Shown here piece by piece: positions 3,287 through 48,804 of a stretch of DNA of 64,000 nucleotides. The notes under the pieces are model-generated. The model was not told the DNA's origin and searched no databases. It saw only the letters and a program-made list of their open reading frames with translations. The translations under genes were made by a program, and so were the position numbers. This DNA comes from Candidatus Poribacteria bacterium (GTDB lineage Bacteria > Poribacteria > WGA-4E > WGA-3G). Numbering within the stretch: position 1 is the first letter of the stretch; each line of letters starts with the position of its first letter. The stretch covers positions 1,751,371 to 1,815,370 of the forward strand of contig OY282386.1 of NCBI GenBank assembly GCA_958295945.1, read 5' to 3'.

Positions 3287-4045
3287 ATGAAGAAATTGGC
3301 AATTTTTCTCACAATTGCTCTAATTGCTATCACGCCAATGGTTTATGCACAAGACTGGCAGCCGGCGGGTGATCAATGGATAGAAAAATGGTGGGCACTT
3401 GATTTAGTCATTAGAACCGGTGGATTCACTGCATCTGCCGAAAAAGATTACCTTGCTGAAGGAACAATTGACCCAGGTACAAACGAATCCGCATATACAA
3501 ATCAGAGTGTTTCTACTCGTTTTGGGGCCGGTCTAACTGGTAGAACACCAGTCCGATTACCAGCAGATAACGGTGGTATTCTTACATGGTCAATTGTGAA
3601 CCTTAACATTGATAGCACAAACAACATGTATCAAAGTCATGATATACCAAACAATGCTCCAGGTCATTTACGCGACAATATAACTTGGCACGGTATCATC
3701 CTCATCTTGTCACCCGATGACAGGACAACTACGATACACCCAGCACATGATGACCACGCTGAAATATGGCTCAACGGTAGAAAAGTCTATAATAATCCCA
3801 GTTGGACTGGCGGTGCTACACAAGCAACACAACCTACAGAAGTAGACCTCGTTGAGGGTGAAAACTTCTTACACTTAAAGTGTGGTGAAGGCGGCGGTGG
3901 AGATTATGTCAACCTTCGTTTCTCTGAAGGTGATGAAGATCTCAGAATCGCACCAACTATGAGTGATCAATTCCTTGATGTTTTGACTCCCGTTGAACCG
4001 AAAGGTAAAGTGACCACAACTTGGGCAGATATTAAACGGAAATAA
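3287..4045 (+). CDS. Secreted PA14/jelly-roll-like protein with TTTW C-terminal motif
   Basis: 252 residues. A clear Sec signal peptide (MKKLAIFLTIALIAITPMVYA, cut before QDWQ) is followed by a domain whose C-terminal half reads HAEIWLNGRKVYNNPSW and VEGENFLHLKCGEGGGGDYV. That pattern is seen in beta-sandwich modules of the PA14 or carbohydrate-binding kind, but I cannot name the family. The last residues, GKVTTTWADIKRK, match the ends of three other exported proteins in this window. It starts at ATG 3287 with AAGGAG 11 nt upstream and ends just before a strong terminator, so it is probably monocistronic. Likely extracytoplasmic; function unknown. Confidence 0.8.
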   Translation: MKKLAIFLTIALIAITPMVYAQDWQPAGDQWIEKWWALDLVIRTGGFTASAEKDYLAEGTIDPGTNESAYTNQSVSTRFGAGLTGRTPVRLPADNGGILTWSIVNLNIDSTNNMYQSHDIPNNAPGHLRDNITWHGIILILSPDDRTTTIHPAHDDHAEIWLNGRKVYNNPSWTGGATQATQPTEVDLVEGENFLHLKCGEGGGGDYVNLRFSEGDEDLRIAPTMSDQFLDVLTPVEPKGKVTTTWADIKRK

Positions 4046-4065
4046 TAGTCCGACACTATAGATAA

Positions 4066-4102
4066 CAAAAAACCCGTATCTATTAGAGATACGGGTTTTT
4101 TG
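4066..4102. terminator. Bidirectional rho-independent terminator
   Basis: A perfect 10-bp stem, ACCCGTATCT (4072-4081) with AGATACGGGT (4087-4096), has a 5-nt loop, six A before it and six T after it. It sits between the convergent genes ending at 4045 and 4393. Confidence 0.9.
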
Positions 4103-4114
4103 TTGTTGTAAATA

Positions 4115-4228
4115 ATACCATTTCTAATAGAAAACGCCGCATTTTTGTACCACAAACTGCCAGTTTGTGCTGTCCTTCAAGAGATTCTTAACTAATGTTT
4201 ATGGGGCAAACATTTATAGAAATGGTAT
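4115..4228. repeat. 114-bp MITE-like element, copy 1
   Basis: The ends are inverted: ATACCATTTCTA at the left and TAGAAATGGTAT at the right. The centre holds a palindrome, CACAAACTG-C-CAGTTTGTG. A second copy at 29214-29327, in the opposite orientation, has the same length and differs at 9 of 114 positions by my base-by-base comparison. No coding capacity. Confidence 0.85.
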
Positions 4229-4268
4229 AAGAATCCCTAATGAACTTTGACTTCAAATTGGGTTTTTG

Positions 4269-4290
4269 TAGGGGCGAGGTCCCCTCGCCC
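4269..4290. repeat. REP-like hairpin (GTAGGGGCGAGG type)
   Basis: GGGCGAGG pairs with CCTCGCCC around two bases, preceded by GTAGG. A close relative (GTAGGGGCGGGG / CCCCGCCC) lies at 63873-63895. The remaining bases to 4392 show no gene. Confidence 0.6.
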
Positions 4291-4392
4291 AGTGGAGTTT
4301 GCGTAAGCGACACTTATGGGTGTAAGCTCAATCTACAAATTCGTGAGTCTACACCAACAAAGAAAGTTCTTTACGCTTTACATGACCTATTG

Positions 4393-7300
4393 CTATTTTA
4401 CTACCTGAATTGTTCCGGTTGAAGCGACTGCTGATTTTGATGGATCGTACATTGCTTCAGCAGAAACCGGTGGCACTGTAAATCTCCCCTCCGTTACTAC
4501 CCTCAGTGGATAGTAAAAAACCTGCTCTCTTTGGTATTGAAACGATCCATAAAATAGCAATCTGTCATCTCGGATATCTATGTAATCAGGTTTGAACACC
4601 TGTTGTTCCGTAGATGGCGTGCTTGCGCGAGTAACCAAACGTGGATTCTCAATCTCCAAACCTGCAGGTAACATATCAATCACCACGACATTTTCAAGGT
4701 TGCCTGTCAATGCCTTCACACTTACCTCAGCAACCACCAATTCACCTTGCTTAAAGACGTTTTTGACTTGGGCTCTATCGGGTGTCAGGTAGCGACGGCT
4801 TATGTGCAATTCTCGTCCATATTCCTCAATATACGAATCTCTACGAATGCCGAATGCTTCCCAATAATAGTAACATGTGCCTTTGCCCTTCACAGAGAGT
4901 TTCATTTGCGATCCATCCCAGTCTGAACCGATAAATTGTTTTCCGGATGCATTGAAGTTAGCAAAATGTACATCGTTTCGGTTGATTGTTCCGGTGAATT
5001 TCTTGTGCGATTGTTTTTTCAAGAACTTACCGAGAGCAAGTAAAGCGAAGACGTTCTCCTGTGTAGTCCCCCATCGTTGTTTTTTTGATGCGGTGTTGGT
5101 TAGACTCGCCACGAGTTTTTGGACTGTAGGATGGTCCTCTTTGATCTCTACCAGTACATCTAAAATGATGGCTTGTGCGCGAATAGACGAGTCAAAATTG
5201 CGTCCTGTATCTCTCCGCGTTGTGTTATCAAAGGTTACTTCATCAGGGAGCATTGCCAGTGCAATATCAAGATCACCCTTCAGGGCAAACGCGCCCGCAA
5301 GATGAAATTGACTGTAATCGTGAAGTTCGCTCAATCTGTTATTTCTGAGGTAATGCATCACCGATTTTTCTGGCTGCCCCGCTGCTGCCAACACATAACA
5401 TGCATAAGCTGCTTGTGATAGGGTGTCCCTATCAGACTTTTCATTTGGCATGTTGATGGTCCCGCCCCATTTGGCTTGAGTTCTCAAACCCTCCAACATC
5501 TTGTTATACATAAGATTAGGAATTTGGTAACCCGCTTTCCGTGCTTCAACGAGAAAGTGTGCTGCGTAGATGCTGCTCCAATTGTTCACGGTAGAGCTAC
5601 CTCGCCAGTATTCAAAATGATGATTTGACTGGAGCATATCTTCCAATCTTGCGATACCTGCCATAATATACTCGTCAATTTTATCATCCTCTGCCAAAGA
5701 CGGTTCCACAATTTTTGCAAGATCGCTCAGATAGAGTAGAGGAAATACACGACTTGTTGTCTGCTCAAGACACCCGTGTGGATACTGAATCAGATAACGA
5801 AGTCCGTTTGCAAACCTGAGCGTGGGAAGCGGCGAAAGAGTAAGCATAAATTCAGAGGTATCCTCCCTGAAATTTGATGGGAAAATGAAATCATCTGGTT
5901 CACCCTCTCGGACAATACCGGATCCTGTCTTGGTAACAGGAGGTGCAGCTGAACGGAGTGGCAAACGGATAGGTGCATGCTGTCCCTTCTCACCGTTACC
6001 AGATGCAGTCAGATTGAACGTTGCAACGCCAACTGCATCGTGTGCAATTACATCAAAATAGAGATGCCCTTCCTTGTTAGCCCCAATCTCTACCTGTTTT
6101 TGAAGTGAATTCGCGTTGTTTATATCGCCATAATCCGTAAGTAATTGGACTGGCCCCATAGCCTGCAGATTGACTTTGAAGTTAACTATCTCGTCAGTGC
6201 CATTGTAGACTGAAACTGGAACACGAATTTGATCACCACCTGAAAGGAATCGCGGGAATGATGGCGTTATCACCACTGGCTCCCGCACCTGAATCTGCTC
6301 TGTTGCAGACCCGTAATCTGGTCCGGAGAAAGCAACTGCCATCACTCGTAAGGTGCCGTTGAATTGTGGTACCTTAAAACGGACGCTGCCACGTCCATCT
6401 GCATCAGTTTCCAAAAAACCTGACCACAACGCTACCGAGGCTACACGCACTACGGCATCAGCATTAAGTCGTCCTAAGGCTCTTCCTCTCAATGCAATTG
6501 GTTCTCCTGTTATCCGATCATGTACTACACCGAAACCGCTACGCGAATAACTCCCAACTTGACCGAGGTGTTCCTGCACCATTAATTGTTTTGCCATCAT
6601 TCGCCTCTTTTCGGAATCTGAAATTGCCAAATTTAACAGATCATCCAGGGAGTCAATTGGATTGATAGGAAATTGGTCATCTCTTGTGATTGCATGATGG
6701 AATTCATAAGACGTGGTCTCAAGTTTTCTTTGCCGATATAGATGAGGGTGCGGGTCTGGCGTTTGCATATTGATTAGTTGAAGGATACCCTCATCTACGG
6801 CTGCGATGGTAACTCTATAGGGTTTCCCTCTGCGTTCACCACGCACCAGAAACTTTATGTCTATCTCGGTGTTTGGACGAATCTGTTTAGGGGCATCAAT
6901 TTCAACTTGCAACTTGTGTATTTCGGTATCAATTGTTAACGGTACGATTCCAAATGCTCGTGCAGGAGCATTTCTGTCCAACGATTTGGTTGAACGAATT
7001 AACAAAGCAGAAAGATATGTGTTCGGTGCGAAAGAGTCCTCAACAGGAATCGTCAAGGTTGCGGATTTCTCATTCACCATATAGGTCTGATGACTCAACA
7101 CTTTATCACGCTCAATTGTCAGGAGTACTTTGCCTGGGAAAGGTGGTTTGATCTCTAACTTGGCTTTTTCCCCAGGACGATATGACTTTTTATCAAGCGT
7201 CATATCAAGGGTATTCGGATTGTCCATTGACCACGGCACACCACCCCATTCAGACACATTAAATTGCATGGAAACCTTTGCCCCGCCATCCACATCCTCA

Positions 7301-9909
7301 ATCTCTACGCGATGCACACCGAGCGAAACAGGCGTGAAACTGATAGCAGCAATATCCGAATCTGACTTCAAAGTAAAGGATTCCAACCGTTCCACTGTAG
7401 GACTGGTTTGTGTTCTCCATCGGTGTGGGTAATCAATTTTGGAAATAGTTACCTGCAAAGTTCGTTTAGCAGTAGGATTCCCCTCCGTATCAATGACAAT
7501 ATAGTCGAACTTCGTTTCCTCATGCTGTTTGACTGTTCCCGGTTCCTGATGTTTAATACCGACATAATGTGAATAAGGATGAATCGTGAACGCTTTTGCA
7601 TTGGTAACTGCGCGTCCACCAGGTTCCTGTACAGTGGTTTGGATATATCCCTGTAACGTTATAGGCGGTTTCAATCCTTCTGGTAGTGTAAATTGGTATG
7701 TTGCTTTTCCCTCTATGTCGGTTACGGTTTCATTCAGATTAACCTGTTTGTATTGGAACGTCCGAGTAGAATCGGTAAAATTGAAGGTGCTCCATTTCTT
7801 GACTGGCACATAAGAATGCAGAGGTGCATACTGTATAGCGGCAAGATCGTAGTCCGCATTAACCTTCCTTCCAACTGCCGGTGTGCCGAAGAGATTCATC
7901 GCCTTAACTTCCACCTTAACTTCATCTCCAAGCATATAGACATCTTTATCAGTTTCTACCGATATTTTCATTCGGTCTGGCATAAATTCTTCCACTTGGA
8001 AAAAATCATAACCGATCTGTTTTTTACCGGACCACATTCTGGCATAATACCTACCCGTTGGAACGTGTGCTGGCAGCGGTATCTTCACTTCACAGGCACC
8101 TTCTGCATCGGTTTTTATTTTAATCTCCTGGAATTTGGCATCATAAGGGTATAAGATTTCAATCCGTAACGGGAGTGAAACTGGAACTTGACTGTTCTTA
8201 CCACGAACAATCCCAACGAGGTTAACAGTTTCCCCCGGACGATAAATACTACGATCTGTATAAAGAAATGCTTCATGTTCATCCTTTAGAAAGGGGATAC
8301 CGTCAACATCAAAACCTCTTGTAGAAAACTGGTGACGTAGTAATTGCAGTAAAGAGAAATCGTCGTCTTTCGTTGCAGTAAGTAGAAATTCGGGACTGTC
8401 TTTGAGAAGATCAGGTTTTAAGTCAAACCGGACATGACCTGTAGGGTCGGTTTCTTTACTGAGGAGGACATGTTTATCTTGATTATTGATGAGTCGTACA
8501 GTCGCGTTCCGAATCGGTTCTAAAGAATCAAGTGAATTCACCCATACATATATCTCTTTATCAATTCTTTTTGCGACAATACCGAGGTCAGTAATCAACA
8601 CTAATTGCTCAGCGTATCCCTTTCTACCCTTACCCGAATGCACCACGACCTTAAAAACGCCCGCATGTTTATCAGTTAAATATTCCTTTAGGGGTATCGT
8701 TGTTGAGATTACCTCGTTTAATTTGGACTCAATTGCCAGCTCACCTTGGTGAACAAGTGTTGGTAATTTTGAAAGATATACCTTTGAAATTCCTATTCCT
8801 ACGTTTTCTATGTTGGATGTTATGATGTTGAGATTCAAGTCACTCTTACGGGGTAGGAAAAAGGTGTTGTCAGTGAAATATATCCTTGGTAGCAAGTCAG
8901 GCACCTTAACAGTTTGCACATAAGTGTTTCTTAAAAACCCGTTTTCAGATGCAATACCGTTTTTAATTGTGACCGTATACTCAGATCGAAACTCAAAATC
9001 TCCATAAACTTCCAAATCATAATTGTTCACGACTAATCGAAAAGGCAGCTTCGGTTCAATACCTATCTGGTCTTGAAACATATCAACTGTGATCGGTGAT
9101 CTAAATCTGAATCTGAGAAATAGTTTGCCATCTCTCTGCAAGAAGTCTGTCCGTTCAATTTGAAGTTCATTTATATTGCCGATCTGTATTGTTGCTACAG
9201 TGTCCTTCTCAAGTCCGATTTCTGTGCCTGCGCATTTGAATCCTTTGCCAATTTTTGCTTGAATAAGTCGTCCTTCAAGAAGCGGCTGAATCACTTCGGT
9301 CTCAATCAGGACAGTTCTTGTAACAGCACTTTGAGGTTGGAAAGTATAAGGGATTTCAACATCTCTTCCCGATATAACCGAAAGAAATTCCGTTAAAGCA
9401 GCGACCTTAACAGGATAGTTAAATGTAACGGTGCCAACAGCCATCGCTTTTTTCAGGTCTTTGTTGTATCGGAATTCTATCTTAGCCTGTTCCACCTTGA
9501 AAGGCTTAGTTACGTGATTGAACTTTCGCTGTCCAGTGAGAACGAGATTCCCAGATGCGTCTATATCATTAGAAATCTCAAAGACATATTTACTTGATGG
9601 TCCCAATGTGCTTTCTAAAAAGATACCGATTTTATTCGTTGCAACCCATCTTGCCTTTACTTCTACTGATGGAGTAATCGTAATTGCGTTTTTCGGTAAT
9701 GCGGTGAAAAGGAGTTCTCTGTCAATAACGTCTTTAGAAAATGTTATCAAGAAATCAGCAACGCTGCCGTTATACTCTCTCGATGTGAAGGACTCCACGG
9801 TGAATTCTGTTTCTTTTTCTTTCTCCGCACTCACAATATGTGTTGAAAAAAGAAGTGTAGCGAATAAGAAAATACCAATGATACGTTTTTGGAAGATGAT
9901 AAATTTCAT
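4393..9909 (-). CDS. Alpha-2-macroglobulin family protein
   Basis: 1838 residues from ATG 9909, which has GGAGA 5 nt upstream and begins a signal peptide (MKFIIFQKRIIGIFLFATLL...IVSA); the frame is open 15 codons further upstream. Bacterial alpha-2-macroglobulins trap proteases in the periplasm and are thought to protect cells from host or competitor enzymes. Seen: repeated macroglobulin beta-sandwich domains, the segment YRPGETVNLVGIVRG near 580, and the thioester motif GCLEQ with Cys1380 and its Gln, followed by the helical thioester domain and a C-terminal beta domain. There is no lipobox, unlike E. coli YfhM, so it is probably soluble. No pbpC neighbour, the usual partner, is present in the window. 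Confidence 0.92.
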   Translation of the reverse strand: MKFIIFQKRIIGIFLFATLLFSTHIVSAEKEKETEFTVESFTSREYNGSVADFLITFSKDVIDRELLFTALPKNAITITPSVEVKARWVATNKIGIFLESTLGPSSKYVFEISNDIDASGNLVLTGQRKFNHVTKPFKVEQAKIEFRYNKDLKKAMAVGTVTFNYPVKVAALTEFLSVISGRDVEIPYTFQPQSAVTRTVLIETEVIQPLLEGRLIQAKIGKGFKCAGTEIGLEKDTVATIQIGNINELQIERTDFLQRDGKLFLRFRFRSPITVDMFQDQIGIEPKLPFRLVVNNYDLEVYGDFEFRSEYTVTIKNGIASENGFLRNTYVQTVKVPDLLPRIYFTDNTFFLPRKSDLNLNIITSNIENVGIGISKVYLSKLPTLVHQGELAIESKLNEVISTTIPLKEYLTDKHAGVFKVVVHSGKGRKGYAEQLVLITDLGIVAKRIDKEIYVWVNSLDSLEPIRNATVRLINNQDKHVLLSKETDPTGHVRFDLKPDLLKDSPEFLLTATKDDDFSLLQLLRHQFSTRGFDVDGIPFLKDEHEAFLYTDRSIYRPGETVNLVGIVRGKNSQVPVSLPLRIEILYPYDAKFQEIKIKTDAEGACEVKIPLPAHVPTGRYYARMWSGKKQIGYDFFQVEEFMPDRMKISVETDKDVYMLGDEVKVEVKAMNLFGTPAVGRKVNADYDLAAIQYAPLHSYVPVKKWSTFNFTDSTRTFQYKQVNLNETVTDIEGKATYQFTLPEGLKPPITLQGYIQTTVQEPGGRAVTNAKAFTIHPYSHYVGIKHQEPGTVKQHEETKFDYIVIDTEGNPTAKRTLQVTISKIDYPHRWRTQTSPTVERLESFTLKSDSDIAAISFTPVSLGVHRVEIEDVDGGAKVSMQFNVSEWGGVPWSMDNPNTLDMTLDKKSYRPGEKAKLEIKPPFPGKVLLTIERDKVLSHQTYMVNEKSATLTIPVEDSFAPNTYLSALLIRSTKSLDRNAPARAFGIVPLTIDTEIHKLQVEIDAPKQIRPNTEIDIKFLVRGERRGKPYRVTIAAVDEGILQLINMQTPDPHPHLYRQRKLETTSYEFHHAITRDDQFPINPIDSLDDLLNLAISDSEKRRMMAKQLMVQEHLGQVGSYSRSGFGVVHDRITGEPIALRGRALGRLNADAVVRVASVALWSGFLETDADGRGSVRFKVPQFNGTLRVMAVAFSGPDYGSATEQIQVREPVVITPSFPRFLSGGDQIRVPVSVYNGTDEIVNFKVNLQAMGPVQLLTDYGDINNANSLQKQVEIGANKEGHLYFDVIAHDAVGVATFNLTASGNGEKGQHAPIRLPLRSAAPPVTKTGSGIVREGEPDDFIFPSNFREDTSEFMLTLSPLPTLRFANGLRYLIQYPHGCLEQTTSRVFPLLYLSDLAKIVEPSLAEDDKIDEYIMAGIARLEDMLQSNHHFEYWRGSSTVNNWSSIYAAHFLVEARKAGYQIPNLMYNKMLEGLRTQAKWGGTINMPNEKSDRDTLSQAAYACYVLAAAGQPEKSVMHYLRNNRLSELHDYSQFHLAGAFALKGDLDIALAMLPDEVTFDNTTRRDTGRNFDSSIRAQAIILDVLVEIKEDHPTVQKLVASLTNTASKKQRWGTTQENVFALLALGKFLKKQSHKKFTGTINRNDVHFANFNASGKQFIGSDWDGSQMKLSVKGKGTCYYYWEAFGIRRDSYIEEYGRELHISRRYLTPDRAQVKNVFKQGELVVAEVSVKALTGNLENVVVIDMLPAGLEIENPRLVTRASTPSTEQQVFKPDYIDIRDDRLLFYGSFQYQREQVFYYPLRVVTEGRFTVPPVSAEAMYDPSKSAVASTGTIQVVK

Positions 9910-9954
9910 TTGATGTCTCCACAATGCATGTTGAATATAATGTTTATTTAGCAA

Positions 9955-30843: not shown

Positions 30844-31614
30844 CTATTGTGATTTAGATTTCAATAATCCCCAAGTTGTGGTTGCTTTTCCAGCCGCTTC
30901 AACAGCGGCAAACTCTTCTAATCCTGTTTCCATTACATCGTTGACTTGTGCTTCAGTAAGTGCTTTCGTAAAAAAGCCTACTTCATCAAAAAGACCTGTT
31001 GCAGCAACGTTGCCAGGTCGTGCTCCTATCCAGATAGGTGATTTACTGGTATCAAGTTTTCCACCACTCGCCATTTCAACTTCTAATTTACCATCAACAA
31101 ACATCTGAACCTTACTGCCATCATAGACTTTAGCGATATGATGCCATGTTCCATCTGCAACGATAGTTTTGCCCGGCATACGCGTCTCCACGCCATTGAC
31201 GTGCCACATAAACACTGGATAGTCAGCATCATGGATCCATATATCAAGATGACGTACAAGGTTGGCCTCGGGCCAAACTTCCCCATTACGCCAAACGACG
31301 TACTGCCATGAAGCAGCATTCAACTTTACCCAAGCAACAAATGTATATGGATCAGAGTTGAAAACATCATCATGGTCAATTCGGACATAACTATCACCTT
31401 TTCCTGGAAATTCCAGTGCTCCTCTGATCTTGCCATTGTCCACCCATTCCAGTGTGCCTTTGATGTCGCCATCGTGTCCACTGACAACATCTTTAACAAC
31501 TTTTCCTCTCCCTTCTTCAAATAACCATGCACTAACTAAACCCAGTTTTGCTGCATGTGCGGAAAAGGATATAATAAATATAAAGATTGTAAAACACAGA
31601 ATAAGAGATTTCAT
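30844..31614 (-). CDS. Secreted LamG-domain protein with TTTW C-terminal motif
   Basis: 256 residues from ATG 31614, chosen because GGAGGT lies 6 nt upstream; the frame is open further upstream to 31689. The signal peptide is MKSLILCFTIFIFIISFSAHA. A LamG/concanavalin-like jelly roll spans about 25-225: GLVSAWLFEEGRGKVVKDVV, FTFVAWVKL-like YTFVAWVKLN, GTWHHIAKVYDGSKVQMFVD, and FDEVGFFTKALTEAQVNDVM. Such modules bind carbohydrates or proteins outside the cell. The last residues, GKATTTWGLLKSKSQ, match the ends of the proteins at 3287, 47024 and 48034. Between ALDH and an enolase-superfamily gene; 31 bp from the latter. Confidence 0.87.
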   Translation of the reverse strand: MKSLILCFTIFIFIISFSAHAAKLGLVSAWLFEEGRGKVVKDVVSGHDGDIKGTLEWVDNGKIRGALEFPGKGDSYVRIDHDDVFNSDPYTFVAWVKLNAASWQYVVWRNGEVWPEANLVRHLDIWIHDADYPVFMWHVNGVETRMPGKTIVADGTWHHIAKVYDGSKVQMFVDGKLEVEMASGGKLDTSKSPIWIGARPGNVAATGLFDEVGFFTKALTEAQVNDVMETGLEEFAAVEAAGKATTTWGLLKSKSQ

Positions 31615-31645
31615 CATATTACCTCCAAAAAGTTGTAAAACCAAT

Positions 31646-32650
31646 TTAGACGCGGCATTTATCCAGAGCGTCCTCATCCAATTCCACACCTAATCCTGGT
31701 TTATCGGGTATCGTTACGTATCCGTTATCAAGTGGGATTGTTGAGGGTGTAACGATGTCAAAAGCGCGTAAAGCATTCAATGTGATTGACGGCATCGTCG
31801 CGTTTTGCATTACAGCTGCAAGATGCATAACAAAAGTAGTTGTTATACCGAGTCCAACAATCTGTATCCATACCGGTAAATGTGCAGACTCTGATATGAT
31901 TGCTTCTCGTTTAGCATTTGCAGCGCGTGAATCAGGATATGCAATTATAAATGAATCGTTCATTTTTGCTCGGATGGCTTTAACAGGATCAGGATTCCCG
32001 AAGTGAATTGTAATCGGCATATCGGTGTGTCGTTTTATCTCTTGGTATCCTTCAATGTCTGATTGAGGTATCGGCGTTTCAAATGCCTCAATGTTGTAAT
32101 CCTGAAGTTGTCGTGCGACCTCCAAGGTGTGTTCCGGTGTTTTAAATGAATTATTCGCATCTACTCTAAGTTGAAAATCATCTGGTACTACTTCAGCGAT
32201 TGCAGCTACCTGTTCACGAACTTCAAACCAAGGACGTGCCTTGATTTTATGCAGCCTATATCCGAGTGCATAAGCATGTTTTGCTTCAGCTGCCCATTCT
32301 TCAGGTGTCATGTCGATTGACCAATACCCGAATGAAGCCTTGTCGTTAACTTTTTCACCTAATAGTTGGTGGACTGGCACACCGAGTGATTTGCCCATAA
32401 TATCATAAAAAGCCTGTTGTAAAGGTGTCGGTGCCCAACCATTCATAAACTCAAACGGGTTTCTACCGATGTATTTCTGAATCGATTCTTCCGATTGAAA
32501 TGAGCCATCTCCTATACCAGTTATTCCATCATCTGTATGCACTTTGTAGACATGATCAATCTGATAGAGATTACGACTTGTCATCAATTCATAGATGCCT
32601 TCATGATATGGCACTCTCACCTTGATAACTTCAATATCTGTAATTTTCAT
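31646..32650 (-). CDS. Mandelate racemase / muconate lactonizing enzyme family protein, atypical active site
   Basis: 334 residues, enolase superfamily (abstracts a proton next to a carboxylate on a divalent metal). Seen: the KxK pair K135/K137 in LHKIKAR, metal ligand D164 (RVDANNSF) and E191 (EAFETPIP). At the position where a third acidic ligand is expected, the sequence reads MPITIHFGNPD, giving His216 instead of Asp or Glu. The C-terminal barrel end lacks a clear His/Asp dyad. It may act on an unusual substrate or have lost activity. ATG 32650 has GGAGG upstream. Confidence 0.8.
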   Translation of the reverse strand: MKITDIEVIKVRVPYHEGIYELMTSRNLYQIDHVYKVHTDDGITGIGDGSFQSEESIQKYIGRNPFEFMNGWAPTPLQQAFYDIMGKSLGVPVHQLLGEKVNDKASFGYWSIDMTPEEWAAEAKHAYALGYRLHKIKARPWFEVREQVAAIAEVVPDDFQLRVDANNSFKTPEHTLEVARQLQDYNIEAFETPIPQSDIEGYQEIKRHTDMPITIHFGNPDPVKAIRAKMNDSFIIAYPDSRAANAKREAIISESAHLPVWIQIVGLGITTTFVMHLAAVMQNATMPSITLNALRAFDIVTPSTIPLDNGYVTIPDKPGLGVELDEDALDKCRV

Positions 32651-38600: not shown

Positions 38601-38989
38601 CGTATATGATCTCCGATAGCAAAATCTGTATGTCTGCCGAGAAAAGTTTCTTCAACCAAGATTGCTCTGTCCAATTGTGTTGTGAACCTTAGGCTGTCAA
38701 GTTGTCCGTTCCATCCAATAATCAATTTCCCATTCTTATCAAATTCTTGTTGATCTGAGTATCTACTGATTTCACTGCCTTCAACTACCTCTTGACCATA
38801 AAGATCGTGGAAGAATTGAGGTTCTTCTTCTAATCTGAATCTATCAGAGAATTTCTGATTAGTTTCAATTGCAGGTAAGAGAGGTTCATAAGGTCCGAGA
38901 GGTTCTGCACCACAACCCATGAAAATGAATGTAATAGAGATGTAAGTCAATGTAAGTAGAAAATAAATCAATAGTCTAAATCTATTCAT
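35657..38989 (-). CDS. Very large surface lipoprotein, probably with an outer-membrane barrel
   Basis: 1110 residues. The N-terminus has a lipoprotein signal with Cys26 (FIFMGCGAEP). The middle holds acidic calcium-binding loops of thrombospondin type 3 kind: EDDDDGDGWPDDVDFDN, DDRDQDGVLDYHEDF, DLNNNGTIDTIED (about 650-720). Long stretches elsewhere alternate polar and hydrophobic residues, and the protein ends in Phe (YVRAMAGF), both usual for outer-membrane beta-barrels. I do not recognise the family; gliding/T9SS-type SprA proteins are also giant but I see no specific match. AAGGAG precedes ATG 38989. No enzyme motif seen. Cell-surface location is the only supported claim. Confidence 0.75.
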   Translation of the reverse strand: MNRFRLLIYFLLTLTYISITFIFMGCGAEPLGPYEPLLPAIETNQKFSDRFRLEEEPQFFHDLYGQEVVEGSEISRYSDQQEFDKNGKLIIGWNGQLDSLRFTTQLDRAILVEETFLGRHTDFAIGDHIRLKPDTLFPNQYIISKTEFDGLRWDISFAQEHHLFSFLHSRISNPIRLPTAFRNARALGLDLGRRNGWNPFSGVRNIESTRLIGFRGQTLLTENFRVGYTYINMHKQHPERIISSYMGTVPNTPPETISIVFRDDSPEDNHTRAFTDFHEYDPDLHSDNIQEGVGAAFKSMRITIVTQPLEKLHPADIDEGLEPNPLPKKTYEFDITADQLVPIGTSNIVDSVDSEWKIVTGFNKMKYDLNLYDIDINIDPRAVKSVVFEMIVAGDYNIAVIGLSKANQANENPDLQEWIKTSDGHIQMPYRDVIQAPGNYGQSPDYIKDRDKLKHNPRQWKGEGRQRKVRYQYGAARAATLYGIDLEGRIGNIFIRTHYSVNGKYKQYPTIPKDKVGYSRKQTIVKTPDGDQPSGVTINPSTGLHVDANGVPTYSETEGERFEAFLGGDGTDIDADGKLGREKAWFIHLESRFEKLHLEGVLYHIDPGYTTTYLNFGPNPNRGSVFTLDKNVDRDQQAQEIDSWDIINYILIEDDDDGDGWPDDVDFDNVLPRADDRDQDGVLDYHEDFLIFDADPPVFKGIIDLNNNGTIDTIEDNLEPEYEYGIDRQGYHINTKYDLLNNLSLQIGWLNEREVSSRRRNNSKYVHVIYDRDIPDFGSIAFQNRFVRVQDDIPDYTITLPVGELETVSINDELDYYNARVNTTIFQCVYSAVHNLTLEAKSLVVMQKQLEQDEANALFTDVEYDPITESFEADERIDFMVLDNQIREAGDRRESPFYPDHGINALDPNDTGLIYDQNNWKKRRYPERNIRNQLTILKGRYEIPLSDLPYIDSIGADLVLTPMFKYVWDRAFDRTAEEINKTLNPDLFVPTDLEVIEYLRFNRRSREDVLGFRLDYQFSPRIKLLGGFQYRKYVNRDQNFKKYLQKYPFDTPVPLIYRPDLRTRILEIQTMNRGQWLGATIIVLAGVRRTTNLFKGTVANTMYVRAMAGF

Positions 38990-39249: not shown

Positions 39250-41553
39250 CTACTTTATTACCAACATCTTTCGTGTTGCAGAGAAATCACCTGCTGTAAT
39301 TGTATAGAAATATACACCACTACTCACAGGTTCATGATCGTTATTTAGTCCATCCCAATATGCTGCATCTTCTTGTGATGTGTAATCACCTGCGACTAAT
39401 TTACCAAGTGATAGCAGTCTTACCAATTCACCTATGGGTTTGTAAATTTCTATGTTTACATAATTCTCATCAGCTACCTTAAAAGGAATCCAAGTTTCTG
39501 GATTGAAAGGGTTCGGATAGTTTTGTAGAAGTTGATTCCGTTTGACTTGTCCGAGGGTGACAAGTTCTTTGCGATGAGGATCAACTGGCTTAGGAAGGGA
39601 TGTGAGTATGCTGGTGATATCCCAAATTTTATGTTGTCCGTATATATCATAAGACACTAATTTAGAACCGTGTTCACTAATGGACATGACTCTATCAATA
39701 GTTGGATGTTCAATCGGTATTCCTGTAGACCAATCAACTATTTGCAGGTTGTTGTCTTTTTCTGTTAAGAGATACCGTCCATCTTTAGTAAATTTCATTG
39801 GATAATATCCAGTAAACGCATTTAAGAGTTGTGGTGATTCAGGTGAGAGTTTCCATACTTGTGCATCTTCATTTTTCATGCCAGCAAACAGTATGGATCT
39901 ATCCGTATTCGTCACAAATGTAGGTTTATCTGCTATATATCCCTCCCATGCGTATTGAAAGACATAATTATCTCCTTCTCGTTTCCACAACAATATCCAG
40001 TATGTATATTTGTCATTTATACCTGTTCGAGCTGCTGCTGCGAAATATTCATCATTATTACTGAAGCCAAATCGACTGAAATTCGTTGTTTCTTCAAAAC
40101 TTAAATGCATGTGTAGTAACTGTGGCTTATCTGGCTGATTGATATCCAAGATTGCCAGTTCATCCCAGTCAGATACAGCAATCCATCTCCCAGTCGTGCC
40201 ATAACTAATCTTTTCTACATAGGAAATATGATGTGGAATTAGAGATTCTATATTACCATTCTTTAGGTTGCGTAATTCAAGCATACGATTCAATCCTTTT
40301 CCAACTACGATGTTCCTGCTATCGGGTGAAAATGCGAGACCTTGAAATGTATTCCCATCTGCAGAAACAAGCAACCGTGGCTGCTGTGAAGCAACATCCC
40401 AGGTCTTAATAAAATGTGAGGATACTGCAGTATATGTTTTTCCATCCGGACTCAAACCTACCTCAGAGAAAACCCAAATAAAATCTGCCCAAGTATAGTG
40501 TTTTCGTTTATTTTCTATATCCCACATAACCTCACCATTTAGATAGTATAAGTGCATTTTGCTGCCGTCAGGAGATAGAGATATATTTTCTAAATGACGA
40601 AACTCGGTTTGAAATCTGTCAATCTGTTCAAAAGTATTAACATCCAAAACACGCACCTTATCATCCCAACCTTCATAAACGTTGTTTCCTGTTCCACGTA
40701 ATACCCCTGTTCTTGATGCGACATATAGGAGTTGACTGTCAGGACTAAATTCTAAGTCTGTGATATATCCAATTCCACTCTGCAATATCCTTTCCAGTCT
40801 ATGTGTGTTCATATCCCATACATAAACACTCCCCAATTCTCTATCAAACGATGCCATAAGTTTCCCGTCGTGACTGATATCTAGTCCTTCAACCCAGTTG
40901 CCAATATGCCCTTCAAAATGCCCTTCTAATTCTCGTTTCTCTATATTCCACAATTCTATATCGGGTCGGTGTGATGCTACGATTAGGTATTTTCCATCGG
41001 GAGTAAATTCAGTTACGATCTGATCTGTCCCATGACAAGTTCTACCATTAGCTCGTACATAACAAGATTTTAGAGGACGACGTGCTCCTTTCATTGAACC
41101 GATGTGTTCTCCGGTCTGCCAATTCCATAGTTCAATGCTTGTATCAGAAACAGCAGCAAACAATGGTTCTATTGGACTGAACGCTCCGTAATATGAGTCA
41201 TCAGATTCAAACTCCCAATTGGAGCTAATTTCTCTGGCATTAATATCCCATATATTTACGGTTGTCGTCTTATTTGTCCAAGAAGAATCTAAAATCGCAA
41301 TATGTGAAACATTTGGACTGAATGCTACTTCACTATTATCTGTGAGATTGCCAAATTCATCTTCCACCTCACTCGTATCAACATCAACGATTTCAATATG
41401 TCTTTGAACAACACGAAGCATCTTTCCATTGGTGTGAAACACATGTTTTTGGGGTAATTCATGTCCGATTGTTCCAATAGGTTCAATAGCATTCGTAAGA
41501 TTATGTAGATAGAAAATACTTATTAAAATGACACAATTGGAAATATATCTCAT
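39250..41553 (-). CDS. Secreted WD40 propeller protein with NPFNPETWIPF-type C-terminal domain
   Basis: 767 residues. Signal peptide 1-22 (CVILISIFYLHNLTNA). WD40-type repeats fill about 30-650, for example GKLMASFDRELGSVYVWDMN and SPDSQLLYVASRTGV. The last 90 residues are a separate domain: LLQNYPNPFNPETWIPFKVA, VNIEIYKPIGELVRLLSLG, AYWDGLN, SSGVYFYTITAG, TRKMLVIK. This is the FlgD-Ig-like or Por-secretion-like C-terminal domain known from Bacteroidetes and related bacteria as an export/attachment signal. It therefore uses a different tail from the TTTW proteins in this window. Two genes share the operon: the lipoprotein at 41570 starts 16 bp upstream. Confidence 0.88.
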   Translation of the reverse strand: MRYISNCVILISIFYLHNLTNAIEPIGTIGHELPQKHVFHTNGKMLRVVQRHIEIVDVDTSEVEDEFGNLTDNSEVAFSPNVSHIAILDSSWTNKTTTVNIWDINAREISSNWEFESDDSYYGAFSPIEPLFAAVSDTSIELWNWQTGEHIGSMKGARRPLKSCYVRANGRTCHGTDQIVTEFTPDGKYLIVASHRPDIELWNIEKRELEGHFEGHIGNWVEGLDISHDGKLMASFDRELGSVYVWDMNTHRLERILQSGIGYITDLEFSPDSQLLYVASRTGVLRGTGNNVYEGWDDKVRVLDVNTFEQIDRFQTEFRHLENISLSPDGSKMHLYYLNGEVMWDIENKRKHYTWADFIWVFSEVGLSPDGKTYTAVSSHFIKTWDVASQQPRLLVSADGNTFQGLAFSPDSRNIVVGKGLNRMLELRNLKNGNIESLIPHHISYVEKISYGTTGRWIAVSDWDELAILDINQPDKPQLLHMHLSFEETTNFSRFGFSNNDEYFAAAARTGINDKYTYWILLWKREGDNYVFQYAWEGYIADKPTFVTNTDRSILFAGMKNEDAQVWKLSPESPQLLNAFTGYYPMKFTKDGRYLLTEKDNNLQIVDWSTGIPIEHPTIDRVMSISEHGSKLVSYDIYGQHKIWDITSILTSLPKPVDPHRKELVTLGQVKRNQLLQNYPNPFNPETWIPFKVADENYVNIEIYKPIGELVRLLSLGKLVAGDYTSQEDAAYWDGLNNDHEPVSSGVYFYTITAGDFSATRKMLVIK

Positions 41554-42306: not shown

Positions 42307-44742
42307 ATGTTGAAACAAATCTTTTCATTAGTAATCCTAATAGTAATCGTCTTTGTTGGGAATACTGTTGCAGAAATGAAACAAGAGAAGGAGAAGTCTA
42401 TGGCTGAACGTTGGGGATTATATGAAGTGACCTTGAATGGACCCGAGACAGGTAATCCTTTCACTGAGGTAGAATTGTCAGCAGAATTTAAACGAAGTGA
42501 TATAGAAGGTGGACGCACTTTTGAACCGCAAGGATTCTATGATGGCAATGGTATATACAAAATCCGTTTCATGCCAGATGAAGTTGGTGAATGGATATAC
42601 ACAACAAAAAGTAGTAGCGCAGAATTGAACGGTAAAACCGGTGAATTTACGTGTATTGAATCGACTGATGGCAACCACGGACCAGTTCAAGTGTATAAAG
42701 ATTTCTATCTACAATACGCTGACGGTACGCCGTATCATCAGTTTGGCACGACCTGCTATGCATGGACACATCAGGGAGAGGAGATGGAGGAGCAGACGCT
42801 TGATACTCTCACCGACGCACCATTCAACAAGCTGCGGATGTGTATCTTTCCTAAAGATTACTCCTACAATAAGAATGAACCCGTCTACTATCCATATCAG
42901 GGAAAACCGCTCAAAGATTGGGATTTCACAAGATTCAATCCAGAATTCTGGCAGCATTTTGAACAAAGAGTGCAAGATTTGTTGAAGCTTGGTATTGAAG
43001 CGGATATAATCCTATTCCACACTTATGATCGATGGGATTTTGAGAATATGGATGCTGAAAGTGATGATCATTATATACGTTATGCTGTTGCACGCTTGGC
43101 GGCTTTCCGTAATGTGTGGTGGTCTCTTGCGAATGAATACGACATCATGCCATCGAAAACGGAATCGGATTGGGATCGGTTTTTTCAGATTATACGAGAC
43201 CACGATCCATATCAAAGGTTGCGCGGGATACATAACTGCAGAGGTTGGTATGACCACAGTAAACCTTGGGTGACACATACAAGTATTCAAACATCAAATA
43301 TGGCTGAAGGTATCCTTTACCGCACACGATATAATAAACCGGTTATCTATGATGAGTGTCGTTATGAGGGAGATATACCGCAAGGATGGGGAAACATTAC
43401 TGCACGACAGATGGTTCAAAATTTTTGGGCAGGTACTGTATCAGGATGTTATGTTGGACATGGAGAAACATACAAGCATCCTGAAGACCTTTTATGGTGG
43501 GCAAAGGGAGGCATACTTAGAGGTGAAAGTCCGGCACGTATAGCATTTCTAAAAGAATTTATGACAGATGCCCCCGAATTTGATACGCTTGAACCGGTCG
43601 GCGATGATAAGGGACGATATGTCCTTGCTAAAGAAGGTGAATATTATTTGGTTTATACAACTGAACCGCAAACAATAACAGTTAAACTGCATGGAAACAC
43701 TCCGTATAAAATTGATGGCATTGATACTTGGAATATGAAAATTCTACCTGTTGGGACTGCACAACCAGGAGAATATACATTTGCGTCATCGCAAACTGAT
43801 TTTGCATACCGTTTTACGCCTTATGCACCGGGTGAGAAACTTCGTCCAGAAGCAAAAGCATCTGCTGATGTTCTTCAAGGCAGTGCACCGCTTACTGTCT
43901 CATTTTCAGCATCAGATGAATTGACGCAACAATGGGATTTTGGTGATGGAATCACATCAGATGAATCAAATCCAACACACGTTTATGAGAATCTTGGACA
44001 ATATACCGCCCTGCTCACTGTTACAGATGCAGATGGTGCATCGGCAATAACCGCACGGACCATTAATGTTATGCCTGCTGTTCCTGATGACATAGGCACA
44101 CATAAAGAATTTCCTGGATCACGCGACGGACTTGTGTTTGCTTGGAACAGTAAGTTTGAGGATAGCAATGAAATCGAATCCCGCGATGAAGCAAGAATTA
44201 CCGAACACGGACAAATGGATCTGGCTGGTGGTGCATTTATCGCAAAAAATGTGAATGAAATTCTGCTTGCAGCATGCCAGAAAAGCAATCAATTAACAAT
44301 TGAATGTCTCGTCAGCACAGACAATCTAAATCAGAGCGGTCCGGCGCGTATAATATCGTTCTCAAAGGATGTCACCCATCGTAACTTTACCTTGGGACAG
44401 GATAGAAATCGGTTTGCCATTAGGATTCGAACACCGCGAACAGGTACAAACGGTCAGGGAGGCGAGTTCTCATTTGGTGGGATTGACTCTGGAAAGGCAA
44501 CACATGTCATCGTCAGTTATTTTTCTGGGAATGTTCATTGCTATGTTAACGGTGAGTTAGTCCATACTGGCAACGGAATTCAAGGTGACTTCAGCAATTG
44601 GGAACTATATCCGCTTATTTTCGGGGATGAAGCAAGTGGTGGAAGGAACTGGGTAGGTAAGCTGAGTCATGTTGGAATCTATAGTCGGTTTATTGGTTTG
44701 GAAGAGGCTGCACATAAGTTTAAACTGATTCAAAGTGAATAG
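42307..44742 (+). CDS. Secreted glycoside hydrolase: DUF5060, apiosidase-like barrel, PKD, LamG
   Basis: 811 residues. Signal peptide 1-22. Residues 30-120 are a DUF5060-type beta domain (WGLYEVTLNG, VELSAEFKRSD, EWIYTTKSS). Residues 125-420 are a TIM barrel of the DUF4038/apiosidase-like kind, with the likely acid/base Glu in WWSLANEYDIMPS and the nucleophile Glu in VIYDECRYEGD. A DUF5605-like cap follows (VYTTEPQTITVKL, ILPVGTAQPGEYTF). A PKD domain follows (about 510-595: WDFGDGITSDESNPTHVYEN), then a LamG domain (600-805). It would cleave an extracellular polysaccharide. Promoter and start are clear. The substrate is unknown. Confidence 0.86.
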   Translation: MLKQIFSLVILIVIVFVGNTVAEMKQEKEKSMAERWGLYEVTLNGPETGNPFTEVELSAEFKRSDIEGGRTFEPQGFYDGNGIYKIRFMPDEVGEWIYTTKSSSAELNGKTGEFTCIESTDGNHGPVQVYKDFYLQYADGTPYHQFGTTCYAWTHQGEEMEEQTLDTLTDAPFNKLRMCIFPKDYSYNKNEPVYYPYQGKPLKDWDFTRFNPEFWQHFEQRVQDLLKLGIEADIILFHTYDRWDFENMDAESDDHYIRYAVARLAAFRNVWWSLANEYDIMPSKTESDWDRFFQIIRDHDPYQRLRGIHNCRGWYDHSKPWVTHTSIQTSNMAEGILYRTRYNKPVIYDECRYEGDIPQGWGNITARQMVQNFWAGTVSGCYVGHGETYKHPEDLLWWAKGGILRGESPARIAFLKEFMTDAPEFDTLEPVGDDKGRYVLAKEGEYYLVYTTEPQTITVKLHGNTPYKIDGIDTWNMKILPVGTAQPGEYTFASSQTDFAYRFTPYAPGEKLRPEAKASADVLQGSAPLTVSFSASDELTQQWDFGDGITSDESNPTHVYENLGQYTALLTVTDADGASAITARTINVMPAVPDDIGTHKEFPGSRDGLVFAWNSKFEDSNEIESRDEARITEHGQMDLAGGAFIAKNVNEILLAACQKSNQLTIECLVSTDNLNQSGPARIISFSKDVTHRNFTLGQDRNRFAIRIRTPRTGTNGQGGEFSFGGIDSGKATHVIVSYFSGNVHCYVNGELVHTGNGIQGDFSNWELYPLIFGDEASGGRNWVGKLSHVGIYSRFIGLEEAAHKFKLIQSE

Positions 44743-45189: not shown

Positions 45190-45219
45190 TTGGACATCAA
45201 GTAGACTTAATGATATACT
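45190..45219 (+). promoter_or_regulatory. Sigma70-type promoter for the PQQ-propeller gene
   Basis: TTGGAC (45190-45195), 18-bp spacer, TATACT (45214-45219), 38 bp before ATG 45257. Confidence 0.6.
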
Positions 45220-45256
45220 GCGTTACATTTTATTTTATGTATGAAAGGCATTACAC

Positions 45257-46609: not shown

Positions 46610-46629
46610 TAGTATTAAATTAACCTTTC

Positions 46630-46941
46630 TTGATTGGTAAACGTTTTCATGCCATAATTGTTGTCAGTAATAAACCAAAATTCTATAGGGTTTTTCAGTT
46701 TTCGGTTTTTCTGCTGTATTTCATTACAAACGTTAATGGTTTTGAGATACAATATCTTGATGATAGCGAGACCCTCTGGATAGACATAAGTAACCTACAG
46801 GCTCCAAAAACAGGTAGAGTTTACCATATGTCTGCGTATACCCGCATTGATGCGTATTACACGATACAAGGAAAAACTAGAACGTTTTCTTGGAAGGACT
46901 GTGTAAACAGTATTCGTTTTACACACTTCCCTCCACCATAA
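46630..46941 (+). CDS. Possible small exported protein
   Basis: About 103 residues, TTG start at 46630 without a good ribosome-binding site. Residues 20-37 (VFQFSVFLLYFITNVNG) could be a signal peptide, followed by FEIQYLDDSETLWIDISNLQ and a Tyr-rich C-terminus ending HFPPP. It lies in line between two same-strand secreted genes. No family recognised; it could also be a gene remnant. Confidence 0.4.
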   Translation: MIGKRFHAIIVVSNKPKFYRVFQFSVFLLYFITNVNGFEIQYLDDSETLWIDISNLQAPKTGRVYHMSAYTRIDAYYTIQGKTRTFSWKDCVNSIRFTHFPPP

Positions 46942-47023
46942 GATTAAAGTTCTATTACTTTCCAAAGACAGGTGTTTTCTTTATCCATAAAGGGAGATAC
47001 CTGCTCTTCATATAGGAAATACA

Positions 47024-47977
47024 ATGTATAAATATTTTACTTTCATCATACTGCTATTGTGTATTACGCCTTTCGCCTTGGCAAAAATAGTGTTTATGTC
47101 CAAATGGGAAATATATGTGATGGATGATGACGGTAGTAACGTCAAAAGGTTAACACATAATAATGTATACGATGCCCACCCGCGCTGGTCTCCCAATGGG
47201 AAGTACATCGCTTTTGAACGTGATCAAGAAAGGGAAAACAATGAACAGAATCTTGATCTGTTCCTCATGAATTTGAACGGAACACAGGTTCGACAACTTA
47301 CTACTTACACTGGAATTGACATAAATCCTGCTTGGTCGCCCGATAGTCAAAACCTAGCATTTACAAGCACTCGAGATGGTGCGACAAGTATTCATACCAT
47401 TGATATTGAGACGCAGGAAGTAAGCGAACTCACACGCAATATGAATGTACGCAATACAGGAAATCCGGACTGGTCACCTGATGGCAAACATATTGTCTAT
47501 ATTTCAGCAAGAAGAAACCCTTTTCAAGAAGGTATTTACGTTATGGATGCGGACGGTAAAAACCCGCGTCCCTTCGTTCGAGATGCAGGTACAATCTACT
47601 TTTCCCCACGTTGGTCACCTGATGGCAAACATATTCTATACGGAGAGGCAAAACAAGGTAAAAACGAAAAAATCGTCATCCAGTCAAAAAACGGTGCTTT
47701 GGTAAAAGAACTTGTGTTGCCACCGATCAAGAGATGGTTCATGCACTTGGCTTGCTGGATGGGGACACGACATATACTTATTCATGCTGCAGAAGAGAAT
47801 GGACATGGACAAAGTGATATTTTAAGATATACCATCGCTACTGATGATATCGTAAATCTCACCAACTCACCAAAGGCAAACGATGGATTTCCAGATTGGA
47901 TAGATGACGCATCACTTTCTGTTTTACCCTACGACAAACTCACCATTCAGTGGGGAAAACTCAAGCAGATGAATTAG
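47024..47977 (+). CDS. Secreted TolB-like beta-propeller with TTTW-type C-terminal motif
   Basis: 317 residues. Signal peptide MYKYFTFIILLLCITPFALA. Then PD40/TolB-like repeats: PRWSPNGKYIAFERD, PAWSPDSQNLAFTSTRDG, PDWSPDGKHIVYISARR, PRWSPDGKHILYGEA, alternating with IYVMDADGKNPRP. These form a periplasmic propeller; unlike TolB itself there is no N-terminal TolB domain, so it is a stand-alone propeller. The C-terminus LPYDKLTIQWGKLKQMN is a divergent form of the shared tail motif. Followed 56 bp later by the ConA-like gene, which carries the same tail. Confidence 0.87.
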   Translation: MYKYFTFIILLLCITPFALAKIVFMSKWEIYVMDDDGSNVKRLTHNNVYDAHPRWSPNGKYIAFERDQERENNEQNLDLFLMNLNGTQVRQLTTYTGIDINPAWSPDSQNLAFTSTRDGATSIHTIDIETQEVSELTRNMNVRNTGNPDWSPDGKHIVYISARRNPFQEGIYVMDADGKNPRPFVRDAGTIYFSPRWSPDGKHILYGEAKQGKNEKIVIQSKNGALVKELVLPPIKRWFMHLACWMGTRHILIHAAEENGHGQSDILRYTIATDDIVNLTNSPKANDGFPDWIDDASLSVLPYDKLTIQWGKLKQMN

Positions 47978-48033
47978 GATTTACATAGTCCTCTCACAAG
48001 AATATCTATCACTTTACAATTAAGGAAAATATT

Positions 48034-48804
48034 ATGGAAAAAATAATGAAAGCAGCAATGCTTATAACCTTAGTTTGTTCTATAACACAACCAACACAAC
48101 CAATTCTTGCAGGAACATGGAGAGATGATTTCTCCGACCCAGATACCACTCAGTGGGAAATTTATAACATATCGAATCAGCAAAATGCTGCCGAGAAGGA
48201 CACCACTCAGTGGAAAATAAAAGATGGAGTAGTGTATGGAACGCAACGTGAATTTTCAAGACAGAGCACATTTTTAACTGGCAAGTTAACGTGGAAAAAT
48301 TATTCCGTTTCTTGCCGTGCAAAGTTCGTTGGAGAATGGTTTCCAACACTTGATTTAGGGTTAGTCCTTCACACAAGACCTAAAGAACATCAACGATTTA
48401 TGTTTTTAATGCATCATGATGAACAGAAAATATCTATTGTGGCATTCTTGGGTGGAAAATGGCAAAATGGTCAATTTGTGATTACTAAGAACGTTAAAAA
48501 ATTTAACTTTGATATAAACTTAAATACTTGGTATTCGCTTTCTGCAAAATTAGTAAAAGACAACCACCTCCAATTTGAGATAGAAAATTTAAATGATCCC
48601 GATAATAAGGCTACGCAAAATATAAAAATTGATAAACCAATTACACAAGGTGGATTAACAGGGTTTATTGTCTCGTATGCTGATGCTGTGTTTGACGATC
48701 TTGTAATTCATGGAGATAATATCCCAAATGGTGGAACAATAACGTTTCCTGTTGAACCCCTCCGCAAACTCACTACAACGTGGTCAAGACTTAAAAGCAA
48801 ATAG
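48034..48804 (+). CDS. Secreted concanavalin-like (DUF1080-type) protein with TTTW C-terminal motif
   Basis: 256 residues. Signal peptide 1-27. A jelly-roll domain covers 30-230: WRDDFSDPDTTQWEIYN, WKIKDGVVYGTQREFSRQST, YSVSCRAKF, NTWYSLSAKLVKDNHLQFEI, GGLTGFIVSYADAVFDDLVI. This resembles the laminarinase/LamG-like fold annotated as DUF1080 or 3-keto-disaccharide hydrolase, but catalytic residues are not evident, so binding is safer. TTQW occurs twice near the N-terminus (small internal duplication). The tail is RKLTTTWSRLKSK. AAGGAAAA lies upstream of ATG 48034. Confidence 0.85.
   Translation: MEKIMKAAMLITLVCSITQPTQPILAGTWRDDFSDPDTTQWEIYNISNQQNAAEKDTTQWKIKDGVVYGTQREFSRQSTFLTGKLTWKNYSVSCRAKFVGEWFPTLDLGLVLHTRPKEHQRFMFLMHHDEQKISIVAFLGGKWQNGQFVITKNVKKFNFDINLNTWYSLSAKLVKDNHLQFEIENLNDPDNKATQNIKIDKPITQGGLTGFIVSYADAVFDDLVIHGDNIPNGGTITFPVEPLRKLTTTWSRLKSK

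Follow-up and report, generated by a model that had tools for sequence, protein, structure and literature searches.

Why do four exported proteins of differing build, encoded within one stretch of bacterial DNA, end in the same short sequence, and is that sequence a sorting or anchoring signal? The stretch, referred to here as the window, comprises 64,000 nucleotides of Candidatus Poribacteria bacterium DNA (assembly GCA_958295945.1, contig OY282386.1, positions 1,751,371 to 1,815,370 of the forward strand) and lies within the single contig of a 5.34-Mb genome (the source genome). An earlier note on the window had quoted four open reading frames (ORFs) with a shared C-terminal tail, described as a 13-residue motif, K-h-T-T-T-W-x-x-[LI]-K, on proteins of unrelated fold. 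Re-reading the tails at their coordinates, we found all four as quoted (GKVTTTWADIKRK, GKATTTWGLLKSKSQ, DKLTIQWGKLKQMN and RKLTTTWSRLKSK), with one correction to the ORFs: the second is encoded by the minus strand, where it spans 30844–31689 in full and probably starts at 31617. Each protein also begins, by eye, with the Sec signal peptide that had been claimed for it.

The bodies of the four proteins bear out part of the earlier description. The protein at 47024–47977 is a PD40/TolB-like propeller by Pfam (E = 8.5e-31), and that at 30844–31617 is a LamG protein (Pfam E = 9.8e-23), on which a structure model and Foldseek agree. The PA14 similarity of the protein at 3287–4045 was seen, but only below the Pfam cut-off (E = 2.5e-4). 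The protein at 48034–48804 gave no match in a Pfam search, and its model, built from an alignment of 5 sequences and with a mean pLDDT of only 65, is lectin/CBM66-like. Judging from the models, this protein and the LamG protein probably share a fold superfamily, so that four unrelated folds is an overstatement for this pair. In an AlphaFold model of 30847–31617, the LamG body was mostly confident and the tail poorly placed (pLDDT about 50), with a short helix at residues 245–255; in the model of 48034–48804, residues 237–256 had pLDDT values below 50 and mostly below 30, given an alignment of only 5 sequences. A further LamG protein in the window, at 42307–44742, is without the tail.

A body-independent tail on exported proteins

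Across the source genome, the tail has the consensus V-[ED]-[PA]-x-[GDN]-K-L-[TA]-T-x-W-[GA]-x-[LI]-K-x(1-10)-stop. Relative to the Trp, conservation extends over positions −12 to +4 or thereabouts, a block of about 17 residues, and 13 residues is thus too short a description. The similar upstream spacing, V-E/L-P/A-x-x-K, which had been listed as a separate feature, is real and belongs to the motif itself. The TTT of the K-h-T-T-T-W core proved dispensable; V..P..K....W[GA].[LI]K is nearer to the core.

A DNA pattern for T-T-x-W-x-x-h-K matched the genome 64 times, compared with 9 times for the reversed pattern; 57 of the 64 matches were taken as tails, being in frame and starting 8–15 codons before a stop. 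A profile built from 53 tails matched 127 places in the genome at E ≤ 10. This search scored 150 of 189 candidates, and the tail counts are therefore lower bounds. At least 109 ORFs of 100 or more amino acids (aa) end within 12 residues of a profile match of at least 7 bits, a set that omits tail matches in frames shorter than 100 aa or with hidden Markov model scores below 7 bits. Lys(+4) was present in 109/109 of these tails, helped by a Trp-placing rule that allowed only Lys or Arg there. Outside the set as a group are four divergent tails on tandem genes elsewhere in the genome (Table 1), which indicate that the profile captures only part of the tail family.

The motif is tied to the ends of proteins. 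In the loci fetched from the source genome (ORFs totalling 191,405 aa), a generic form of the motif had 113 occurrences no more than 12 residues from a stop and 2 elsewhere; these loci were mostly fetched for pattern or profile hits, and internal matches in the rest of the genome are outside the count. The same ORFs gave 0 matches in one shuffle and one reversal. In the loci listed by the species-wide scan described below, of which there were at least 111, a stop followed within 18 codons for 128/128 pattern matches, of which one is a chance frame. The reversed pattern, the shuffled and reversed ORFs and the placement before stops rule out chance or composition as the source of the tails, and a DNA-level repeat at gene ends is ruled out by core codons that vary among copies.

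We found that the tail is independent of the body that carries it. With tails removed, 104 bodies fell into 17 blastp groups (of 52, 15, 11, 4 and 4 members, six of 2 and six of 1) at E = 1e-4, a threshold at which deeper homology between some groups is possible. Among the 17 group representatives, conservation was flat down to about −13 and rose only between positions −12 and +4 relative to the Trp, which was present in 17/17, with Lys(−5) in 16/17. Whole-domain homology, under which the tails would be alike only through entire C-terminal domains, is ruled out by these groups and by conservation that stops about 12 residues before the Trp. Among the 109 proteins, the Pfam families listed (25 of 47) included LamG_3 in 56, PD40 in 11, CBM9 in 4, 3-keto-disaccharide hydrolase in 4 and LTD in 3, with LRR, NPCBM, F5/8C and others in 2 each. 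There were six matches to a clostridial receptor-binding model, and Foldseek found neurotoxin lectin domains; we read these matches as reflecting a shared lectin jelly-roll, and not toxins.

Tail proteins are enriched in export signals. A signal peptide was found in 99/109 tail ORFs versus 66/154 other ORFs at the same loci (Fisher 1.3e-16) by a lenient, home-made rule that accepts any start codon towards the beginning of the ORF. Stricter rules gave 91, 90 and 89 of 109 versus 49, 46 and 41 of 148, and outside the largest body group a stricter rule was satisfied by 46/57 tail proteins. The 10 signal-peptide-negative tail ORFs include 3 with a hydrophobic start by eye, and most of the others are short frames. 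Neither outcome that the earlier note had named as refuting a sorting signal, equal frequency of the motif on cytoplasmic proteins or whole-domain homology, was thus borne out. A lipobox was found by a simple rule in 1/99 signal-peptide-positive tail proteins, which as a group do not qualify as bacterial lipoproteins.

A profile scan of the phylum, of the kind that the earlier note had proposed, gave tail matches (E ≤ 1e-3) in 84/84 Poribacteria genomes, with 2 to at least 105 each when no more than 105 candidates were scored per genome, and the motif was found across 21 genera and all 10 Poribacteria families searched. When we scanned one genome per species (84,980 species), 109 of at least 111 listed loci were named Poribacteria. 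The two others came from a metagenome-assembled genome of Pseudomonadota and from Clostridia. The former is a bin of 1.9 Mb with only 4 tail matches, and we read the locus as poribacterial DNA in a mixed bin. The latter was rejected as a chance match: the frame has 12 codons upstream, and the genome is without a tail at E ≤ 0.01. Judged among the matches listed, the tag is in essence confined to Poribacteria. Of 30 LamG loci in four genomes that have few matches, 19 show a generic tail at an ORF end, where the tail ORF may differ from the LamG ORF. The tail is therefore an autonomous, end-specific, export-associated and phylum-wide motif, and almost certainly a real C-terminal tag of exported proteins.

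Known C-terminal tags and type IX secretion-like genes

The claim that the tail matches none of PEP-CTERM, LPXTG or the Por tail was borne out by family models, by the lack of any LPXTG and by the membrane-free end: a transmembrane-like 19-residue stretch was found in the last 40 residues of 0/109 tail proteins. At E ≤ 1, 0/53 tails matched any Pfam family, including PF18962 and PF00404, and 0/53 matched TIGR04183 in NCBIfam; 1/109 whole tail proteins matched TIGR04183 (E = 3.1e-4). A match of 1/53 tails to an NCBIfam lantibiotic model (E = 0.14) was weak and was taken as chance, and a profile search of the PDB with the tail returned three partial matches, the best at E = 0.39, which are not meaningful.

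The closest comparison is with the type A C-terminal domain (CTD) of the type IX secretion system (T9SS). Like the tail, this CTD is C-terminal and occurs on Sec-exported proteins whose bodies are of many kinds; CTD proteins and SprA-, PorV- and PorU-like genes are present in the same genome, and the tail can directly precede a CTD. Unlike the CTD, which has 40–80 residues, the tail has about 17–25, is without the beta-sandwich and lies upstream when both occur. Its conserved block has neither the motif B Gly nor the motif D GxY, and two models show it as disordered or as a short helix. The short CTDs of Prevotella intermedia are reported to be 40–55 residues long and to carry motifs B, D and E, and in P. 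intermedia the sortase cleaves the coil between body and CTD (PMC11969387). The same paper states that GFP could be secreted and attached with no strict need for any part of the Hbp35 CTD other than its last 22 residues.

Other tags differ more. PEP-CTERM with exosortase, GlyGly-CTERM with rhombosortase and MYXO-CTERM with myxosortase are, like the tail, lineage-restricted and present on dozens of exported proteins per genome. These tags combine a signature motif with a transmembrane helix and a basic end, whereas the tail is free of any transmembrane-like stretch; no PEP-CTERM-type NCBIfam model was among the 25 families found for the 109 proteins or matched the 53 tails. LPXTG, read by sortase, is a C-terminal surface-anchoring tag on unrelated proteins; the tail consensus differs in having neither LPXTG nor a transmembrane helix, and the genome has outer-membrane-type genes. 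Type I dockerin is a docking module often found near the C terminus of carbohydrate-binding and surface proteins, and it differs from the tail, which is without the duplicated calcium-binding repeat. PF00404 was found in none of the 53 tails or the four window proteins; it does match 15468–16811 (+) in the window, where cohesin and type I dockerin stand on one protein. The tail fails the defining features of the T9SS CTD, PEP-CTERM-like tags, LPXTG and dockerin, and we rate it as a C-terminal sorting tag that is new in sequence and in construction. We found no description of it in the available portions of the literature on secretion and sorting in Poribacteria.

Tails also occur in front of CTDs. 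The CTD start NYPNPFN matched the source genome 32 times, and 2 of the 30 proteins read have a tail or tail-like segment immediately before the CTD, among them the window protein at 39250–41553, in which the spacing is unchanged and Leu replaces Trp; one of the two internal matches to the generic motif is likewise a tail preceding a CTD. Across the phylum, WGxhK shortly before a CTD start gave 56 matches in 51/84 genomes. The generic tail motif was present in 30/30 of the fusions read (of 56), though the pattern had required only the end of the motif; Lys(−5) was present in 28/30, with Leu in 2/30, and the last Lys was separated from NYPNPFN by 6 residues in 29 fusions and by 5 in 1. The bodies of 29 fusions fell into four blastp groups. 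LRR proteins of the source genome have either the tail or the CTD as their C terminus: two LRR-array tail proteins have 34–49% identity to CTD proteins of the same genome, among the matches listed, and three of those CTD proteins were confirmed as LRR proteins. Four CTD proteins of the genome carry a type I dockerin about 70–130 residues before the CTD.

We searched for SprA, PorV, C25 and GldM, and the first three were seen as similar proteins or family members. A SprA-like protein is encoded in 83/84 Poribacteria genomes, over the curated cut-off in 1 of them, and in none of 14 control genomes; Peptidase_C25 is likewise present in 83/84, the exception being a genome that is 76% complete, and in none of the 14 controls. 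The source genome has two members of the PorV family over the cut-off, one of which matches a solved PorV (E = 9.2e-9), and three C25 proteins of 1741–2159 aa with, by eye, CTD-like C-terminal domains. All three retain the GHG His and the Cys aligned with gingipains. One of them, encoded next to a UPF0164-family gene, was searched against the PDB and was closest to PorU (E = 4.7e-33), better than to gingipains and with the C-terminal part of PorU included. The suggested check for a co-occurring transpeptidase has therefore yielded candidates, the C25/PorU-like peptidases, whose connection with the tail is proposed on the grounds set out in the next section. Earlier reports describe many poribacterial TIGR04183 proteins with no Por structural genes reported (Kamke et al. 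2014, PMC3909097), and T9SS in Bacteroidetes only (PMC4793230). The SprA-like and C25/PorU-like genes, in 83/84 genomes each, reopen the exit of T9SS-type cargo in Poribacteria.

Possible role of the tail

The reading of the tail as a sorting or anchoring signal is supported, and the pattern of its occurrence suggests that it probably has such a function. Export would begin at Sec through the N-terminal signal peptide, a step that has statistical support under our home-made rule. A dedicated partner would then read the last 17 or so residues, which form a flexible stretch whose end, near the Trp and Lys, is prone to a short helix; their conservation across unrelated bodies suggests such a partner. 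The likeliest one would be a T9SS-type outer-membrane apparatus of SprA-like translocon, PorV-like shuttle and C25/PorU-like sortase, for which the genes are present; whether tail proteins use it we consider slightly short of evenly balanced. In the fusions, the tail sits between body and CTD, the site of the sortase cut in known T9SS cargo. Were the CTD removed by a cut behind the tail, maturation would leave the fusion proteins with the same ending as the tail-only proteins, and a retained anchoring or docking element would then be the simplest single role. We tentatively favour this arrangement, in which the tail would stay as a mature C-terminal anchor and the CTD would be an additional signal for crossing the outer membrane on some proteins. 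Alternatively, a C25 sortase may make its cut within the tail itself, one candidate site being behind the near-invariant Lys(−5), since peptidases of the C25 clan often prefer Lys or Arg.

As a whole, an autonomous linear tag that would bring proteins to the outer surface and hold them there, likely through a T9SS-type apparatus, seems to us an evenly balanced proposition. Its fullest version, a phylum-specific, membrane-free tag of about 17 residues that sorts more than 100 proteins per genome, is read by the SprA/PorV/C25 apparatus and is kept as the mature anchor, is plausible but somewhat short of probable. Several results weigh against these proposals. No receptor was identified for the tail. 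The tail was absent from 28/30 of the source-genome CTD proteins read, and tail-only proteins are without a CTD; the two signals being mostly on separate proteins, a shared route is not required. No generic tail was found in 11/30 LamG loci of the four genomes with few tail matches. The SprA-like protein of the source genome scored 67 bits, where the curated cut-off is 200, and a PDB sequence search with it gave nothing; GldM, the motor, was not found in that genome by its family model. Finally, the tail, SprA-like proteins and C25 are all near-universal in the phylum, and their co-occurrence cannot discriminate.

One rival, which we regard as unlikely, is a non-covalent docking peptide that binds a surface scaffold (a receptor domain, an S-layer or a glycan) in the manner of dockerin and cohesin, without a T9SS-like apparatus. 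Many of the bodies are of a binding type (the LamG_3, PD40 and CBM9 proteins counted above, and others), one model shows a flexible tail containing a short helix, as in peptides that fold on binding, and the genome encodes the other docking modules already mentioned, cohesin and dockerin at 15468–16811 and the dockerins of four CTD proteins. However, no scaffold or receptor was found, docking alone leaves unexplained how tail-only proteins would cross the outer membrane, and the fixed position before CTDs requires an extra reason. That position, before CTDs of the outer-membrane-export type, also argues against a tag that holds proteins in the periplasm or is read there by a chaperone or a tail-specific protease, as does a tail found almost only in one phylum, among the matches listed, and on more than 100 proteins of one genome. 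Our data are compatible with proteins staying in the periplasm, and short C-terminal tags read by quality-control proteases exist; we nevertheless hold this explanation to be improbable.

A reduced T9SS CTD, that is, a minimal secretion signal of a known kind, would fit the conserved basic residue near the end, which resembles motif E, and the LRR proteins that bear either ending. We consider it very improbable, given that 0/53 tails match PF18962 or TIGR04183, with the latter matched by 1/109 whole proteins, that the block is without the motif B Gly or motif D GxY, and that even the short CTDs of the Prevotella report run to 40–55 residues (PMC11969387); in addition, the tail lies upstream of the CTD when both are present and so is not the end of that domain. 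That the tail has no function, its copies being alike because they descend from a single C-terminal domain or because a mobile DNA element sits at the ends of genes, is close to untenable. Half of the tail proteins do have a LamG domain (56/109), and tail genes often stand side by side, but the 17 body groups and the flat upstream conservation contradict common descent, core codons vary between copies, and the motif occurs in all 10 families searched. For a sorting tag, the absence of both a membrane helix and a CTD fold would be an unusual way of labelling surface proteins. With the tail, the presumed surface proteome of these abundant, uncultured sponge symbionts can be picked out by a one-line test.

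Features and neighbouring genes

Table 1. Tail-bearing proteins, tails and T9SS-like genes. Plain positions refer to the window; those with a prefix refer to other loci of the source genome.
Feature	Position	Strand	Remarks
Tail-bearing exported protein	3287..4045	+	252 aa; weak PA14 similarity; signal peptide MKKLAIFLTIALIAITPMVYA by eye
Tail VEPKGKVTTTWADIKRK	3992..4042	+	
Tail-bearing LamG protein	30844..31617	-	257 aa from ATG; signal peptide by eye
Tail VEAAGKATTTWGLLKSKSQ	30847..30903	-	pLDDT about 50; short helix 245-255 in model
WD40 protein ending in T9SS type A/FlgD-like CTD	39250..41553	-	Por_Secre_tail 679-765
Tail-like segment PVDPHRKELVTLGQVKRNQLLQ directly before CTD	39523..39588	-	Tail spacing kept; Leu replaces Trp
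Tail-bearing PD40/TolB-like beta-propeller	47024..47977	+	317 aa; signal peptide by eye
Divergent tail VLPYDKLTIQWGKLKQMN	47921..47974	+	
Tail-bearing lectin/CBM66-like jelly-roll protein	48034..48804	+	256 aa; signal peptide by eye
Tail VEPLRKLTTTWSRLKSK	48751..48801	+	Disordered in model
SprA-like gene	G000:C1:1013967 (L322:6677-13099)	+	
PorV-family gene	L324:7949-9130	-	
PorV-family gene	L323:9175-10191	+	
Four tandem beta-helix-like proteins (by eye)	L324:12637-18269	+	Divergent tails KHIVQWADIKRR, KKLTLWADLKRK, KQLTMWANIKRR, KRLVQWGELKRK; near PorV gene

A large ORF of the window, at 35657–38989 (−), encodes 1110 aa and is lipoprotein-like by eye, without a Pfam match; it was compared with the SprA-like protein and is not a piece of it. 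Two ORFs of about 140 aa at other loci of the source genome, L322:5816-6235 (+) and L323:6982-7413 (+), are very similar by eye, and the L322 copy is without a Pfam match. One precedes the SprA-like gene and the other lies near a PorV gene; they may be a small mobile repeat.

Elsewhere in the window, a bacterial alpha-2-macroglobulin is encoded at 4393–9954 (−). Two genes at 59001–59864 (+) and 60841–61668 (+), alike by eye, lipoprotein-like and without a Pfam match, flank a gene on the opposite strand. A transposase at 1569–2755 (+) extends over two frames, with an HTH_32 part and a DDE_3 part, and is either frameshifted or a two-ORF element. OrfB/TnpB-type genes are present at 17082–18306 (+) and 19611–20876 (+), the first of which is split over two overlapping frames, with its second piece recognized by eye.

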